This document shows, one piece after another, positions 18,625 through 32,592 of a stretch of DNA of 32,592 nucleotides. The translations under genes and the position numbers were made by a program. The DNA is taken from positions 1-32,592 of the forward strand of contig JAKSLT010000024.1 in the NCBI GenBank assembly GCA_024401055.1, given 5' to 3'. Position 1 is the first letter of the stretch. Each line of letters begins with the position of its first letter. Source of the DNA: Bacteroidaceae bacterium (GTDB lineage: Bacteria > Bacteroidota > Bacteroidia > Bacteroidales > Bacteroidaceae). The notes beneath the pieces were generated by a model. The model worked only from the letters and a program-made list of their open reading frames with translations. It made no database searches and had not been told where the DNA came from.

Positions 18625-18930
18625 ATAAATTTATTCCTAATTTATGTAGCGCCGCAGGCAAAACTTTTGTCAAAATTTTTTACAATTTATGTGCTCGTAC
18701 AGCGCGATATTCGCGAGCGAAGTGTAACTCGATTGGCTACACGCGATTCTCGCGAAAGTTGGTAAAACGCTGACGCACAAATTATTACTAAAGCAGCGAC
18801 TAAAATTTCCTCCCAATTTTCGCAACTAAATGCCGACTAAGCGCGAATTTCACTCGTACTCGGCATGAAATTCCGCTCTTTTATTTTTCACTAGTTCCCT
18901 TTTAATTTTCACTTGTTCCCTTTCGCTGGA
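18625..18930. other. AT-rich gene-free stretch with a partial repeat copy
   Basis: No credible gene is present; short frames here have biased composition and non-ATG starts. At about 18660-18690 CAAAACTTTTGTCAAAAT and TTTTTTACAATTT resemble the 3' flank of the 183-nt element nearby, so it may be a degenerate third copy. From 18884, CACTAGTTCCCTTTTAATTT is an inverted version of the 21-bp units that follow. Confidence 0.5.
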
Positions 18931-19014
18931 AATTAAAAGGGAACTAGTTCAAATTAAAAGAGGACTAATTCGAATTAAATGGGAAGAAGTTTGAATTAAA
19001 GGAGGACTAGTGGC
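18931..19014 (+). repeat. Four tandem 21-bp units leading into the 183-nt element
   Basis: Four units of exactly 21 bp start with AATTAAA and continue with GGGAACTAGTTC, GAGGACTAATTC, TGGGAAGAAGTTTG or GGAGGACTAGTGG. The last two units are shared with the second copy of the 183-nt element at the window end, so the array is part of, or fused to, that element. Confidence 0.85.
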
Positions 19015-19165
19015 CAGAGGATGCGGGTGTTTTGCGGCGCGGGGTGGAAAACGGAGGCGGGAGGTTTGGAAATGACAGGTGGAGGTGGCAGAATTTTCGC
19101 CAATCATGGCGAAAAGTCCCCAAAATTTAGTACAAAATTTTGTCAAAATATTTTACAGTTTCGCG
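18983..19165 (+). repeat. 183-nt dispersed element, copy 1
   Basis: This segment aligns without gaps to the reverse complement of 32410-32592. The first 49 positions differ once, the last 58 or so are identical (from GGCGAAAAGTCCCC through TTTTACAGTTTCGCG), and the central 75 are only about half identical. The 3' flank contains the palindromes ACAAAATTTTGT and AAAATATTTT. A frame MRVFCGAGWKT...GEKSPKFSTKF runs through it with no stop of its own. It lies in a convergent spacer downstream of the GH92 gene. Confidence 0.9.
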
Positions 19166-19218: not shown

Positions 19219-21243
19219 TTAGTATATCAGGAGGAGTTCGCCGCCTTCGCGGAGCTGGGCATGGGTGATGCGGGGCTGCGTGAGCTTCTTGCCGTTCCAC
19301 TTGATGGACTTCAGGGGCTGGTCAGGGTTGGTACGCCCTACGGTTTTTATGGTTAGCTGGCGCTTGCCGAGGGTGAGGGTGGCACCATCGAAGAGGGGAG
19401 AGAATATTTCGTATGTGGCCTCGCCAACCACGATGGGGTAAAGGCCAATGCTGGCGAAGACGTACCACGCGCTCATGGCGCCGTCGTCTTCGTCCATTTC
19501 GGGACAGTAGCCGCGGGGCATGTTCTGGAAGGCGCAGCCGACCCACGGGGCAGGGTAGGCGTCGTTTCCGCCGTAGCGGTGGGTGACGGCCTGCGTGGCG
19601 AGCGGGCGCACCACCTGCCCCGTCTTCTGCATCATGCCGAGGCGGCCGAAGAGGAAGGGCACGTGGATGTCGGGCTCGTTGCCCTGGTTGTAGAGTTCCT
19701 TGGCGAAGAAGTCTTGCAGTTCGCGGACGAGGGTCTTCTTGCCTACGAATTTCTCCATGCGGCTGAGGTACATGGGTGCGCCCCAGCGGTATTGCCAGCG
19801 GGTGCCCTGATAGAGGCCGTTGCCCTTCATGCGGGTGTAGGTGGAGTCTATTTTCTGGAACTCGCGGGGCCAGATGCTGTCGAAGAGGGCTTCGCCGCGG
19901 CGCGTCCACTTGAGGGCGTCGTCCTTCAGTCCGAGTTCTGCGGCCAGCTGGCCGAGGGCCCAGAAGTCGCCGGCGGCCTCGAGGCACTGGTCGGGCTTCT
20001 TGAGGGCGAGGCCTTCCACCTCGCGGGTCATGCCGGGATAGGCGGCGCGGAGGTTGGGGATGCTGATGCCCTGGCGGTAGGCGTCGAGGAGGGTGGCGAT
20101 GGCGTGCTCCGTGCGCACGGTGGGCACGCATTCATGGGGCGTGCTCCAGTCCTTCTTGCCGGTGAGATAGAGCGTGGCGAGCGACTGCATGATGGCGCTG
20201 GAACGCTGCGGATCGAGGAGGGTGATGAGGGGGAATTTCGTGCGGTAGGTGTCCCACAGCGACCACGAGCTGTAGTAGTCGTAGCCGGCTCTCTGATGGG
20301 GCTGGCCGTCGGTGCCGAGATAGCGGGTGAGGTGGTCGTCGGTCACTTGGAAGGGACTGTGGAAAGTGCGGTAGAGGGACGTGTAGAAGACGGTGCGCTG
20401 GTCGGGCGTTCCGCCATAGACCTTGATGCGTGAGAGAATGTCGCGCCATTCACTGGCAGCCTGAGCGGCTATGTCGGCGAACGGCGTGGCCCACACGGCA
20501 CTCTCGGGCATGGCGTCCAGTTCCTCTGCGAGGCCGGTGCCCACTGCGATTCTCACCTCGAGGGTGCGGGATCGCAGGGTGGGGAATGCCAGGCGCAGGC
20601 GGCCGTCGGGGAGGGAGTCGAGGGTGAAGGGCGCGGAGGCGTGGAGACGGTAGTGCAGGTGGTAGTTGCCGTGGCGGCAGGTGTTGGCGCAGTTGATGTA
20701 GCCCTGCCCGACGGCGGGCGAGGTCTGGCGGAAATGTTTTTCATACACCTTGTCGAAGGCAGAGGCGGGGTTGAGGATGAGCACGGCCTGCCGTGTGGTG
20801 GGGAAGGTGTAGCGCTCCACGGCAATGCGCCTGTTGGCGGTGGCTTCGAAGTTCACGCCGTTGGTCAGCGTGACGCCGTAGTAGCCGGGGCGGGCCTCCT
20901 CGGTGCTTTTCACCAGGGCCACCGTCTCGTCCGCTTCGGCAGGCAGGAGCGACACGTTGCCGCCGCAGCCGCTGCCTCCCACGCCGGAGAGACGGTTGAT
21001 GCTGAACCCCGAGAGGGCCGTCTGCTCAAAGTCGTAGCCCGGGTGCTGCCGCGGGTTGCAGTCGGCGCACACTTGTATCTGGGAATAAGGCATGCAGGCG
21101 CCGGGCGCCATCTGGCCGTAGTCGTTGGCCGTGCCGATGAAGGGGTTCACGGCGGAGAGGATGTCATCGTCCTGCGCCGTTGACACTGCGGGGCAGCAGA
21201 GTAAGGCCGCGAGGAGAAGAGAGAGAGAGAGAGGAAATCGCAT
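19219..21243 (-). CDS. GH92 family alpha-mannosidase, exported
   Basis: The 674-residue protein begins with a signal peptide (MRFPLSLSLLLAALLCCPAVSTAQ). GH92 features are seen in order: NPFIGTANDYGQMAPGACMP, GFSINRLSGVGGSGCGGN, RPGYYGVTL, SSWSLWDTYRTKFPL, the GNEPDIHVPFLF segment with the likely acid Glu523, and the PEMDEDDGAMSAWYVF segment with likely base Asp residues 584-587. GH92 enzymes are calcium-dependent exo-mannosidases acting on N-glycans or yeast mannan. There is no SusC/SusD pair or regulator nearby, so this is a stand-alone glycosidase. The gene is shorter than the common 720-760 residues. Specificity cannot be told. Confidence 0.94.
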   Translation of the reverse strand: MRFPLSLSLLLAALLCCPAVSTAQDDDILSAVNPFIGTANDYGQMAPGACMPYSQIQVCADCNPRQHPGYDFEQTALSGFSINRLSGVGGSGCGGNVSLLPAEADETVALVKSTEEARPGYYGVTLTNGVNFEATANRRIAVERYTFPTTRQAVLILNPASAFDKVYEKHFRQTSPAVGQGYINCANTCRHGNYHLHYRLHASAPFTLDSLPDGRLRLAFPTLRSRTLEVRIAVGTGLAEELDAMPESAVWATPFADIAAQAASEWRDILSRIKVYGGTPDQRTVFYTSLYRTFHSPFQVTDDHLTRYLGTDGQPHQRAGYDYYSSWSLWDTYRTKFPLITLLDPQRSSAIMQSLATLYLTGKKDWSTPHECVPTVRTEHAIATLLDAYRQGISIPNLRAAYPGMTREVEGLALKKPDQCLEAAGDFWALGQLAAELGLKDDALKWTRRGEALFDSIWPREFQKIDSTYTRMKGNGLYQGTRWQYRWGAPMYLSRMEKFVGKKTLVRELQDFFAKELYNQGNEPDIHVPFLFGRLGMMQKTGQVVRPLATQAVTHRYGGNDAYPAPWVGCAFQNMPRGYCPEMDEDDGAMSAWYVFASIGLYPIVVGEATYEIFSPLFDGATLTLGKRQLTIKTVGRTNPDQPLKSIKWNGKKLTQPRITHAQLREGGELLLIY

Positions 21244-23932: not shown

Positions 23933-23945
23933 TTTCACTTGATAG

Positions 23946-24344
23946 TGGAGCCGGAGGGAATCGAACCCTCGTCCAAACGGGGAAAGCATAGGCTTTCTAC
24001 ATGCTTATCTCTGACTGGGTTTTCGTGCGTCGGCAAGACCAGAGCCACCAACCGCCGCCTTAGTCTCCATAGGAGTTTCGCCGTTGGCCGGAGACGGGCC
24101 GCGGGCTATTCCCGATTTACCTGCGCCACCGATTCCGCCTGCCTCGGGAAGAGGGCGGCAGGGTGACGTCTCGTCCCCACTCCTGGAGCGGGGATAAAGC
24201 TAACCTACTGTGCTTCGGTTAGGCAGCGAGAGCATAGTTGCTGTTGCCAGTTAAATTTTTGAGAACCGAGATTAAAGTGCTGACTCCCACCTGCACTGCA
24301 TGCTTACTTATACGTCCGGCCCGCTGTCAAATCCAGTCGACCCC
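23946..24344 (-). ncRNA. ssrA: Transfer-messenger RNA (tmRNA)
   Basis: Read on the minus strand the gene starts GGGGTCGACTGGATTTGAC and ends with the T-arm GAGGGTTCGATTCCCTC and acceptor strand CGGCTCC plus discriminator A. GGGGTCG and CGGCTCC pair to form the acceptor stem. The 3' CCA is not encoded. The tag frame (24219-24248) reads GGC AAC AGC AAC TAT GCT CTC GCT GCC TAA, giving GNSNYALAA after the charged alanine, close to the GENNYALAA tag known in Bacteroides. tmRNA rescues stalled ribosomes together with SmpB, which is not in the window. End positions are good to a base or two. Confidence 0.98.
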
Positions 24345-30823: not shown

Positions 30824-32287
30824 ATGGCAAAGACAGTTTGCTTGTATTTTGAGATTCACCAGAATATCCATCTGAAGCGTTACCGCTTCTTTGATATCGG
30901 TACCGACCACTATTACTACGACGACTACGAGAACGAGCGTTCCATCGCCGAGACTGCCGAGCGTTCCTACGTCCCCGCGCTCCACGCTCTCATCCAGATG
31001 GCCGAACAGTACGGTAAGTTCTTCAAGTGCGCCTTCTCCCTCTCCGGCTCTGCCATCGAGCTCCTCGAGCAGTATGCCCCGCAGGTCATCGACCTCCTTC
31101 AGGAACTCAACGAGAAAGGCACCGTGGAGTTCCTCGCCGAGCCCTACTCCCACGGATTCTCCTCCATCAAGAATCCCGAGTCGTTCCGCGAGGAGACGCT
31201 ACGCCTCTGCCGCAAGGTCAAGGAGCTTTTCGGCCAGCAGCCCCGCGTGTTCCGCAACAGCGCCCTCATCTATTCCGACGAAATCGGCGCACAGGTGGCC
31301 GACATGGGCTTCAAGGGCATGCTCGCCGAGGGTGCCAAGCACATCCTCGGCTGGAAGAGCCCCCATTTCGTCTATCATTGCAACCGCGCCCCCAAACTCA
31401 AGCTCCTCCTGCGCGACGGCGCCCTCTCCGAGGACATCTCCTTCCGCTTCAACGACTCCTCGTGGAGCGAATACCCCCTCTATGCCGAGCGCTATGCCGA
31501 CTGGATAGCCCAGCTCCCCGAAGAAGAGCAGGTCATCGGACTTTTCATGGAACTTTGCGCCCTCGGCATCTTCCAGCCCCTCAGCAGCAATATCCTCGAG
31601 TTCCTAAAGGCCCTGCCACAGCAGTTCAAGGAGCGCGGCATCACCTTCTCCACGCCCAGCGAGATATGCAACAAGATAAAGAGCATCGGCCCCCTCGACG
31701 TGGAGTACCCCACTTCGTGGGTGGATGAGGAGCGCGACCTCTCCCCCTGGCTCGGAAACCTCATGCAGCGCGAGGCCCTCGACAAGCTCTACGACGTCGC
31801 CGACCGCGTGCGCATAGCCGGCGACCGCCGCCTCCAGCAGGACTGGGACCGCCTCCAGGCCTCCAACAACTTCCGCTTCATCTCCACCAAGGCCAACTCC
31901 TACGGCGGCTACCGCGGTATCTACTCCAGCCCCTATGATGCCTTCACCAACTACATGAACATCCTCGGCGACTTCACTGCCCGCGTCAACAACCTCTACG
32001 GCGGCGCTGAGAACGAAGAACTCAACTCCCTCATCACCACCATCAAGAATCAGGGTGACGAACTGGAGCGTATGGAGAAAGAACTCACCCATCTGCGCCA
32101 GCGCCTCGCCGCCTACGGCGAGTTCCCCGAAGGCGAAGACACCGCCGAAGCACCCGCCGCAAAGGCAAAGACGCCCGCCGCAAAGGCAAAGACGCCCGCC
32201 GCGAAGGCAAAGACGCCCGCCGCAAAGGCAAAGACGCCCGCCGCCCCCAAGAAGAAGACTACAGCCCAGAAGAAGGCGCGCTCCTGA
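30824..32287 (+). CDS. GH57 family glycoside hydrolase with a Lys/Ala/Pro repeat tail
   Basis: The 487-residue protein begins MAKTVCLYFEIHQNIHLKRYRFFD, the GH57 opening, followed by EFLAEPYSHGFSSI, VFRNSALIYSDEIGA, GMLAEGAKHILGW and the C-terminal helical part SSPYDAFTNYMNILGDF. GH57 enzymes are retaining alpha-amylases, branching enzymes or 4-alpha-glucanotransferases; here it should process glycogen in the cytoplasm. The region FMELCALGIFQP stands where many GH57 enzymes have an FMDYETFGEHQ-like motif, so the acid catalyst is not obvious; it may be a feature of this subgroup. Residues 443-487 are a histone H1-like basic tail of AAKAKTP repeats that is not part of the GH57 fold. Confidence 0.9.
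   Translation: MAKTVCLYFEIHQNIHLKRYRFFDIGTDHYYYDDYENERSIAETAERSYVPALHALIQMAEQYGKFFKCAFSLSGSAIELLEQYAPQVIDLLQELNEKGTVEFLAEPYSHGFSSIKNPESFREETLRLCRKVKELFGQQPRVFRNSALIYSDEIGAQVADMGFKGMLAEGAKHILGWKSPHFVYHCNRAPKLKLLLRDGALSEDISFRFNDSSWSEYPLYAERYADWIAQLPEEEQVIGLFMELCALGIFQPLSSNILEFLKALPQQFKERGITFSTPSEICNKIKSIGPLDVEYPTSWVDEERDLSPWLGNLMQREALDKLYDVADRVRIAGDRRLQQDWDRLQASNNFRFISTKANSYGGYRGIYSSPYDAFTNYMNILGDFTARVNNLYGGAENEELNSLITTIKNQGDELERMEKELTHLRQRLAAYGEFPEGEDTAEAPAAKAKTPAAKAKTPAAKAKTPAAKAKTPAAPKKKTTAQKKARS
32153..32236 (+). repeat. Four 21-bp repeats encoding the AAKAKTP tail of the GH57 protein
   Basis: Four tandem 21-bp units (CCCGCCGCAAAGGCAAAGAC plus G) differ at one base in total and encode four seven-residue repeats. 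Near-identity at the DNA level indicates recent expansion or slippage. Confidence 0.95.
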
Positions 32288-32409: not shown

Positions 32410-32592
32410 CGCGAAACTGTAAAATATTTTGACAAAATTTTGTACTAAATTTTGGGGACTTTTCGCCGTTTGCGACGGGAATTTTGTTATTTCGGGATGG
32501 CATTTTCAAGACTCGTGTCCCCGTTTTCCACATCGCCCCGACAAACACCCGCATCCTTTGGCCACTAGTCCTCCTTTAATTCAAACTTCTTC
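32410..32592 (-). repeat. 183-nt dispersed element, copy 2 (reaches the window edge)
   Basis: The reverse complement of this segment aligns without gaps to 18983-19165, with nearly identical flanks and a diverged centre. It is downstream of the GH57 terminator. The element probably continues beyond the window, since copy 1 is preceded by further 21-bp units. Confidence 0.9.

Follow-up and report, generated by a model that had tools for sequence, protein, structure and literature searches.

A modular dispersed repeat of some gut bacteria, with conserved end motifs and apparently exchangeable interiors

The window analysed here, the whole stretch of 32,592 nucleotides from a Bacteroidaceae bacterium, carries a unit of about 500 nt that, judged from its sequence, appears to be a modular, non-coding and dispersed element of the intergenic regions of some gut bacteria. 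In the explanation that we favour, and to which we give a probability of about one half, such units swap interiors while their length and spacing are kept by a putative end-binding protein. Copies would exchange interiors via homologous recombination or gene conversion anchored in the shared ends and in short internal repeats, the bricks, which would leave ends and bricks homogenised and the core present as one of several versions. Unit length and end-motif spacing, the latter clustering near multiples of 10.5 bp in the genome of the window (G000; 2.31 Mb, 103 contigs, 83% complete), would be kept by a DNA-binding protein using both ends and probably looping the unit. An XRE-type protein with the motif in its own gene would be the best candidate for this binder.

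The unit (Table 1) begins with an end motif, GAAACTGTAAAAWATTTTGACAAAA, and continues through a lead, inverted bricks of 21 nt, a hinge, direct bricks and a tail to a second motif in the same orientation. By eye, the lead of the G000 units is about 100-130 nt long, the inverted bricks are of type TTCCCTTTTAATTTTCACTAG and the direct bricks of type AATTAAATGGGAACTAGTTCA. Stretches like CGATTCTCG are also found in the tails of units from two other genomes, G001 and G050. Many units border on a second repeat family, ATTTATTCCTAATTCATGTAGCGCCGCAGGC (window positions 18643-18659 and the flanks of G000 loci L007, L008, L108 and L112); it is inverted on both sides of some of them, such as L108, as if the unit were the centre of a larger palindrome. 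One subclass of G000 units (L097, L102, L110, L111 and L114) is bordered immediately outside the motifs by CATAACGATTTTT...GTTACG, outer ends that by eye resemble terminal inverted repeats.

Table 1. Features of the repeat unit and two RNA genes or elements in the window
Feature	Position	Strand	Remarks
Whole unit ("brick element")	18661-19162	minus	from motif to motif on the minus strand
First end motif, GAAACTGTAAAATATTTTGACAAAA	19138-19162	minus	contains the imperfect 17-bp palindrome TGTAAAATATTTTGACA
Lead	19013-19137	minus	contains the diverged core; borders by eye
Diverged core	19032-19107	minus	positions 50-125 of the 183 nt; type A, the other window copy being type B
Inverted brick block	18927-19006	minus	four 21-nt bricks (TCC[CT]NTTTAATTYRAA...)
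Hinge, junction of inverted and direct bricks	18921-18926	minus	approximate, by eye; predicted stem and loop
Direct brick block	18878-18920	minus	about two bricks (AATTAAAAGGGAACTAGTGAA), one a pattern match, the other by eye
Tail, predicted hairpins (CGCGAATATCGCG / CGATTCTCGCG)	18690-18877	minus	
Second end motif (TAAATTGTAAAAAATTTTGACAAAA)	18665-18689	minus	same orientation as the first motif, 473 nt apart
Second, inverted copy	32410-32592	plus	motif at 32413-32437; lead (core of type B); first inverted bricks
Cobalamin riboswitch	249-437	minus	Rfam gathering score
tmRNA	23943-24344	minus	Rfam gathering score

A sequence-only reading of the window had described a dispersed element of 183 nt, present in two copies, with conserved flanks and a diverged core of invariant length. 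The two copies, 18983-19165 on the plus strand and the reverse complement of 32410-32592, are identical at 152 of 183 positions and align without a gap, as had been claimed. The flanks are as conserved as described (48/49 for the first 49 positions, 58/58 for the last 58). The core, positions 50-125, is indeed the diverged part, but its identity of 46/76 (61%) lies slightly above the "about half" first given. A search of G000 with the 183 nt returned 45 matches at E <= 0.001, so the similarity is not due to chance; 13 of these are near full length, both window copies included. In the alignment of these 13 copies (183 columns) the gaps are confined to the two ends, where the matches stop, and the profile of fixed flanks around a core of constant length recurs throughout. 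Averaged over all pairs and taken in blocks of 10 columns, diversity is 0-0.02 up to column 40, 0.08-0.12 in columns 41-70, 0.20-0.36 in columns 71-130 and 0-0.07 in columns 131-183. Aligning the 13 near-full copies and following diversity by position, as had been proposed, gave neither even divergence nor cores of random length within the 183-nt family.

By eye, the 13 copies have two types of core. Type A is found in five (L001-L005), including the copy at 18983, and type B in eight (L006-L013), including the inverted window copy. The part of the unit beside the core seems to follow these types less strongly: a stretch of 392 nt next to the type A window copy has 93% identity with the type B copy L006 and 87% with another type A copy, L002, the latter over a match 21 nt longer. 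Local hypermutation of the core may be an alternative to exchange as the source of the two types. The 183 nt do not, however, constitute the element itself, as first proposed. They are the lead half of the longer unit with direct-repeat ends, starting within the inverted bricks and reaching a little past one end motif, and the conserved flank ends in CTGTAAAATATTTTGACAAAA when read on the minus strand. The second window copy is truncated by the end of the contig, and for 11 of the 13 near-full copies the nearest contig end is no more than 100 nt away, which suggests that the units probably break these assemblies.

How many units are there, and which genomes have them? With up to 3 mismatches the end motif is found at 102 places in G000 (49 on the plus and 53 on the minus strand), and a backward control gave 0. 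Two of these places are coding and two others, with 3 mismatches (L118 and L125), look like chance matches; judged from the motif count, G000 would contain roughly 50 units. The pattern GAAACTGTAAAAWATTTTGACAAAA with up to 3 mismatches gave 94 matches in G000, 11 in G010 and three each in G001 and G050 when 58 genomes of the genus were searched, with controls at 0. The motif variant of G001 and G050 is RAAAATGCGAAAWATTTTGACAAAM; ATGYGAAAWATTTTGACA with up to 1 mismatch has 51 places in G001 and 49 in G050 (control 0 in both), and 1-3 in seven other genomes. A wider motif pattern matched 100 times in G000, 50 in G001, 46 in G050, 24 in G010 and 7 in G003, and 1-4 times in 22 further genomes, of which G044 was examined, while the backward control gave 1 match in four genomes. 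The units of G003 and G044 are few and look decayed, those of G003 each being seen with a single motif and those of G044 amounting to three unit-like loci. The unit-bearing genomes are 63-87% complete, and G044 99%. The exact motif had 0 matches in named genomes, and plasmid and phage records gave no match at E <= 1e-5. Viral contigs lacked the motif and brick patterns of G000 and the brick pattern of G010, and contained one isolated match to the G001 motif, directly after an apparent start codon.

The lead and brick sequences differ between G000, G010 and the G001/G050 pair, yet the order of the parts, their orientation and the direct-repeat ends are alike; repeat families defined by sequence alone would miss relatives that share only architecture. 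There are 28 same-strand motif pairs in G000, with spacings of 390-673 nt, and many of the other places are at contig ends. The spacings in G010 are 347-400 nt. Among 32 motif pairs from G001 and G050, 21 are spaced at 331-334 nt, four at 353 and three at 374-375, with one each at 213, 291, 319 and 342. The spacings of 353 and 374-375 are what the addition of one or two 21-nt bricks would give. Invariance of length thus describes the 13-copy family and fails among more distant units, which vary partly by 21-nt bricks.

The sequence-only reading had offered exchange of the core as one option, and comparison of G050 with G001 supports it. This comparison took in 22 G050 and 17 G001 units that have 150 nt or more on either side. 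Six of the G050 units had both flanks in one stretch of the fetched G001 DNA, and all six sites were occupied; the other 16 had one flank or none there. The ten longest matched stretches of the two genomes are 81-96% identical. In two of four aligned orthologous pairs the left end and the length were kept and the interior was replaced. One of these, L225/L247, has a left flank 95-98% identical, an identical left motif and a nearly identical start of the lead; beyond this the alignment rows drop to 45-49% with a wholly different brick, and the motif spacings are 375 and 374. In the other, L269/L252, conservation covers the left motif plus about 47 nt of lead, followed by 40-69% identity, with unit lengths of 362 and 363 and divergence that extends 86 nt beyond the right motif. 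The pair L238/L262 is intermediate, with 67 diverged nt beyond the right motif, and L230/L257 retains 87-97% identity in every 110-column row. The divergence beyond the right motif in L269/L252 and L238/L262 weighs against the favoured explanation. The left flank of a further unit, L229, matches one unit-bearing G001 locus and its right flank another, which we take to reflect a rearrangement with its breakpoint at a unit. When the 22 units with a spacing of 329-336 among 40 fetched G001/G050 loci were aligned, the nearest neighbour of several members changed along the unit. Segment distances nevertheless remain correlated (Mantel r 0.37-0.65, all p <= 0.002), and exchange is therefore not free. 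Together these comparisons favour exchange between copies over even decay.

Could the units instead be non-autonomous, MITE-like elements? Here the motif would be a terminal recognition sequence, the core types would be subfamilies, and the transposase or recombinase would be missing from an incomplete genome. Their dispersal and intergenic position fit this reading, the motif places numbering 102 in G000, 51 in G001, 49 in G050 and 24 in G010, and the units seem to come and go. G001 DNA that matches the G050 unit of L277 on both flanks lacks a motif where one would be expected, and for the unit of L271 the G001 DNA matching the right flank likewise lacks it, the nearest matched left DNA ending about 1 kb away. 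These flanks are on different G001 contigs (two for L277), however, and neither is a clean empty site; a third G050 unit is split over two G001 contigs. Gain or loss of units over the time that separates these species is likely on this evidence, but no clean empty site was found. MITEs are recognised by terminal inverted repeats, by direct repeats flanking young copies and by a parent insertion sequence with the same ends, according to the available text of PMC10969869. The ends of the units are direct rather than inverted repeats, since the motifs of a pair have the same orientation, although their near-palindromic sequence gives a partial inverted match too. By eye, no target-site duplication was seen among the listed G000 and G001/G050 pairs. 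No longer motif pair with a transposase was seen, the one pair at 1777 nt enclosing the holA/XRE locus described below, and no parent insertion sequence with the unit's ends was present among the motif pairs read in G000, a genome 83% complete in which most near-full copies are at contig ends. Replacement of an interior at a fixed locus, between outer flanks about 95-98% identical, is also unlike transposition. We regard a MITE-like origin as possible, though rather unlikely.

The exchange-plus-binding explanation calls for a protein that recognises the ends, and here the two coding motif places of G000 are of interest. One is in holA and the other, 1777 nt downstream, in the gene for a 180-aa HTH_3 (XRE-type) protein. 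The first encodes the peptide EIVKYFDKN and has one mismatch to the motif; the second encodes ETVKNFDK and is an exact match. In G010 the holA segment has two mismatches to the G000 motif and the HTH gene is exact to the G010 variant. The HTH gene of G001 reads AAAAATGCGAAAAATTTTGACATTT, 3 mismatches from the G001/G050 variant, and that of G003 has an unusual TTGTGACA, common to two other G003 motif places; the contigs of both genomes end before holA. Segments of the XRE gene from 51 species were compared, drawn from the 54 genomes with a match among the 58 searched (G021, G023 and G043 left out). In four of them (G000, G010, G003 and G001) the segment is 0-3 mismatches in 25 from a unit motif, G003 being the weakest case, and in the other 47 it has at least 5. 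The gene was not found in G050, G011, G002 and G055 among the 58 genomes, and in G044, which has three unit-like loci, it is 9 mismatches from the motif. The cases of G044 and G050, and the few decayed units of G003, weigh against a simple link between gene and units. The XRE peptide is partly conserved, which favours some likeness to the motif, and the holA segment is conserved as protein in all eight species read. Between holA and the XRE gene in G000 (C9, L098 983-1910) a stretch of about 0.9 kb has no ORF of 60 aa, and this locus, with a motif in each gene, itself looks like motif, spacer and motif. In G003 (L351, position 12, reverse strand) a weaker motif-like sequence, TGCGAAAAAATGAGACAA, is found upstream of the XRE start codon and is a possible promoter operator.

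Among solved chains the HTH protein matched only 2fjr, "Repressor protein CI" (E 0.0007), which we take to be the CI protein of phage 186. Its closest named relatives come from horse-gut assemblies (Bacteroidaceae bacterium, 54%; Candidatus Equimonas faecalis, 48%). The presumed DNA-reading helix is nearly constant in the nine species read, five of them without detected units, meaning without a multi-copy match to the motif patterns, which more diverged motifs would escape. We therefore rejected a change of XRE specificity, the helix being too conserved to account for the differences between motifs, and a co-evolving specificity finds no support in the protein. XRE regulators are described in the available text of PMC12565409 as mostly autoregulatory dimers that bind palindromes, and we infer that the motif may serve this protein as an operator.

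The spacing of the end motifs is suggestive of helical phasing, and no more than that can be claimed for it. In G000, with 15 distinct spacings and a turn of 10.5 bp, the phase statistic R is 0.72 (p about 4e-4, uncorrected for relatedness and for the choice of period); the 28 G000 spacings used exclude the coding motif pair of C9. The phase is weaker in G010 (R 0.62, n = 7, one 347-nt pair, L031, left out), and the G001/G050 spacings sit at a different phase from those of G000. Bricks of 21 nt keep phase on their own, which weakens the argument. The units might be platforms at which the XRE protein binds the motif, bridges the ends in helical phase and thereby marks some 50 chromosomal sites or folds the chromosome there, with the interior as an exchangeable module for a second partner specific to each lineage. 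The motifs of the units, of holA (in G000 and G010) and of the XRE gene itself would then evolve together. We consider this extension unlikely as it stands and put it forward only tentatively.

An alternative that we hold to be improbable is that the unit is transcribed as a structured RNA, with the brick hairpin as main stem and the end motifs as processing or pairing sites, which might perhaps pair with the holA and XRE messages bearing the same 25 nt. The blocks of inverted and direct bricks could pair as a long hairpin, and in folding the window unit outscores its shuffles (z -6.1 as RNA and -5.5 as DNA). The inverted bricks of the 22 G001/G050 units form a predicted stem of 19 pairs with 90.4% standard pairs, against 87.8% in shuffles and at most 75.8% in slid versions. 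In this stem 23 cells are changed on both sides, as compared with 12.6 in shuffles (0/500 as high) and 1-9 in slid versions. Two measures are less clear, the number of pairs with a double change (8 against 5.6, 25 of 500 shuffles as high) and the pair types (6 of 500), and the structure was derived from the same alignment that was used for the test and has a weak consensus energy of -6.45 kcal/mol. The brick hairpin with its double changes speaks for the exchange-plus-binding explanation as well. The match in the XRE gene also spans the whole 25-nt consensus in G000 and G010, and so extends beyond the 17-bp palindrome. Against an RNA stands the homogenisation of the inverted repeats, through which double changes in the stem are possible without any RNA. 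Furthermore, no Rfam 15 family reached its gathering score for the unit; there were 30 matches at E <= 1, all below gathering and hairpin-like, and 24 of them were to eukaryotic-type microRNA models.

Both window copies lie 3' of genes, as had been noted: a GH92 gene (19219-21243, minus strand) and a GH57 gene (30824-32287, plus strand). By eye, the end of the GH57 gene (window 32150-32287) consists of tandem repeats coding for a lysine-, alanine- and proline-rich tail of AKTPAAK-like type. A position 3' of genes is no general rule, since 5 of 23 G001/G050 units are in divergent gaps. The context was counted from the fetched G001 and G050 stretches with crude ORF calls, leaving out the short G000 loci, which are too noisy. 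Units are enriched in convergent gaps, both at an ORF cut of 120 aa (15/23 against 31/224 other gaps) and at 200 aa (12/24 against 29/200), and the enrichment comes mainly from G001 (11/14, with 4/9 in G050).

The usual view of small mosaic repeats is that they are transposons in decay. The present units retain their ends and architecture in species whose unit sequences differ, their length is tightly kept, and their cores appear to have been swapped at fixed loci. Where units are present, a host regulator gene contains a match to the end signal, with the exceptions of G044, where there is no match, and G050, where the gene was not found. If the exchange-plus-binding explanation is true, the maintenance of such repeats by a host DNA-binding protein becomes directly testable.

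In the open-licence literature no description of such units was found among the matches listed, and the known systems resemble them in different respects. REP and BIME sequences are likewise dispersed, intergenic and palindromic, and Y1 transposase genes are present in G000 too, but REPs are palindromes of 20-40 nt in the available text of PMC3733652 and PMC6006769, and the units are some ten times longer. Spread of REP/BIME-type repeats by a RAYT (Y1) transposase is highly improbable and was rejected: of four Y1_Tnp matches in G000 and one in G050, one (L406) has a unit about 0.6 kb downstream, yet none of the five is flanked on both sides by unit sequence, the remaining three G000 genes and the G050 gene have no motif or brick within 1.5 kb, and the unit-bearing G001, G010 and G003 (74-87% complete) have no Y1 match. 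By eye, different palindromic repeats lie alongside the G000 Y1 (RAYT-like) genes of L406, L408, L409 and L410.

The BOX elements of Streptococcus pneumoniae are modular, boxA-boxB(n)-boxC, with fixed ends and variable inner modules, and are intergenic and able to form stem-loops. The likeness is one of mosaic principle only and not of sequence, BOX being from another phylum, and neither direct-repeat end motifs nor a connection with an XRE gene are known to us for BOX.

Nearest by architecture and host order is BrickBuilt of Porphyromonas gingivalis, which consists of a leader, tandem bricks and a tail and has 19 copies in one strain (PMC4596501); the resemblance in architecture would be one of analogy only. 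Going by the available text of that paper, both are intergenic repeats of Bacteroidales with leader, bricks and tail, a long predicted stem-loop and no transposase inside (PMC4596501). The bricks of BrickBuilt are described there as 23 nt long, direct and about 1 to 23 in number, whereas those of the present unit are 21 nt long and occur in inverted and direct blocks (PMC4596501). The IS5-like inverted ends of BrickBuilt, GAGACC...GGTCTC (PMC4596501), are absent here, where the ends are GAAACTGTAAAAWATTTTGACAAAA or RAAAATGCGAAAWATTTTGACAAAM. As far as that text describes BrickBuilt, the present unit differs from it further in its tight length, in the apparent exchange of its interior and in having its end motif in a host regulator gene. 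The units belong among the mosaic interspersed repeats, and the link to a host regulator gene is their newest part.
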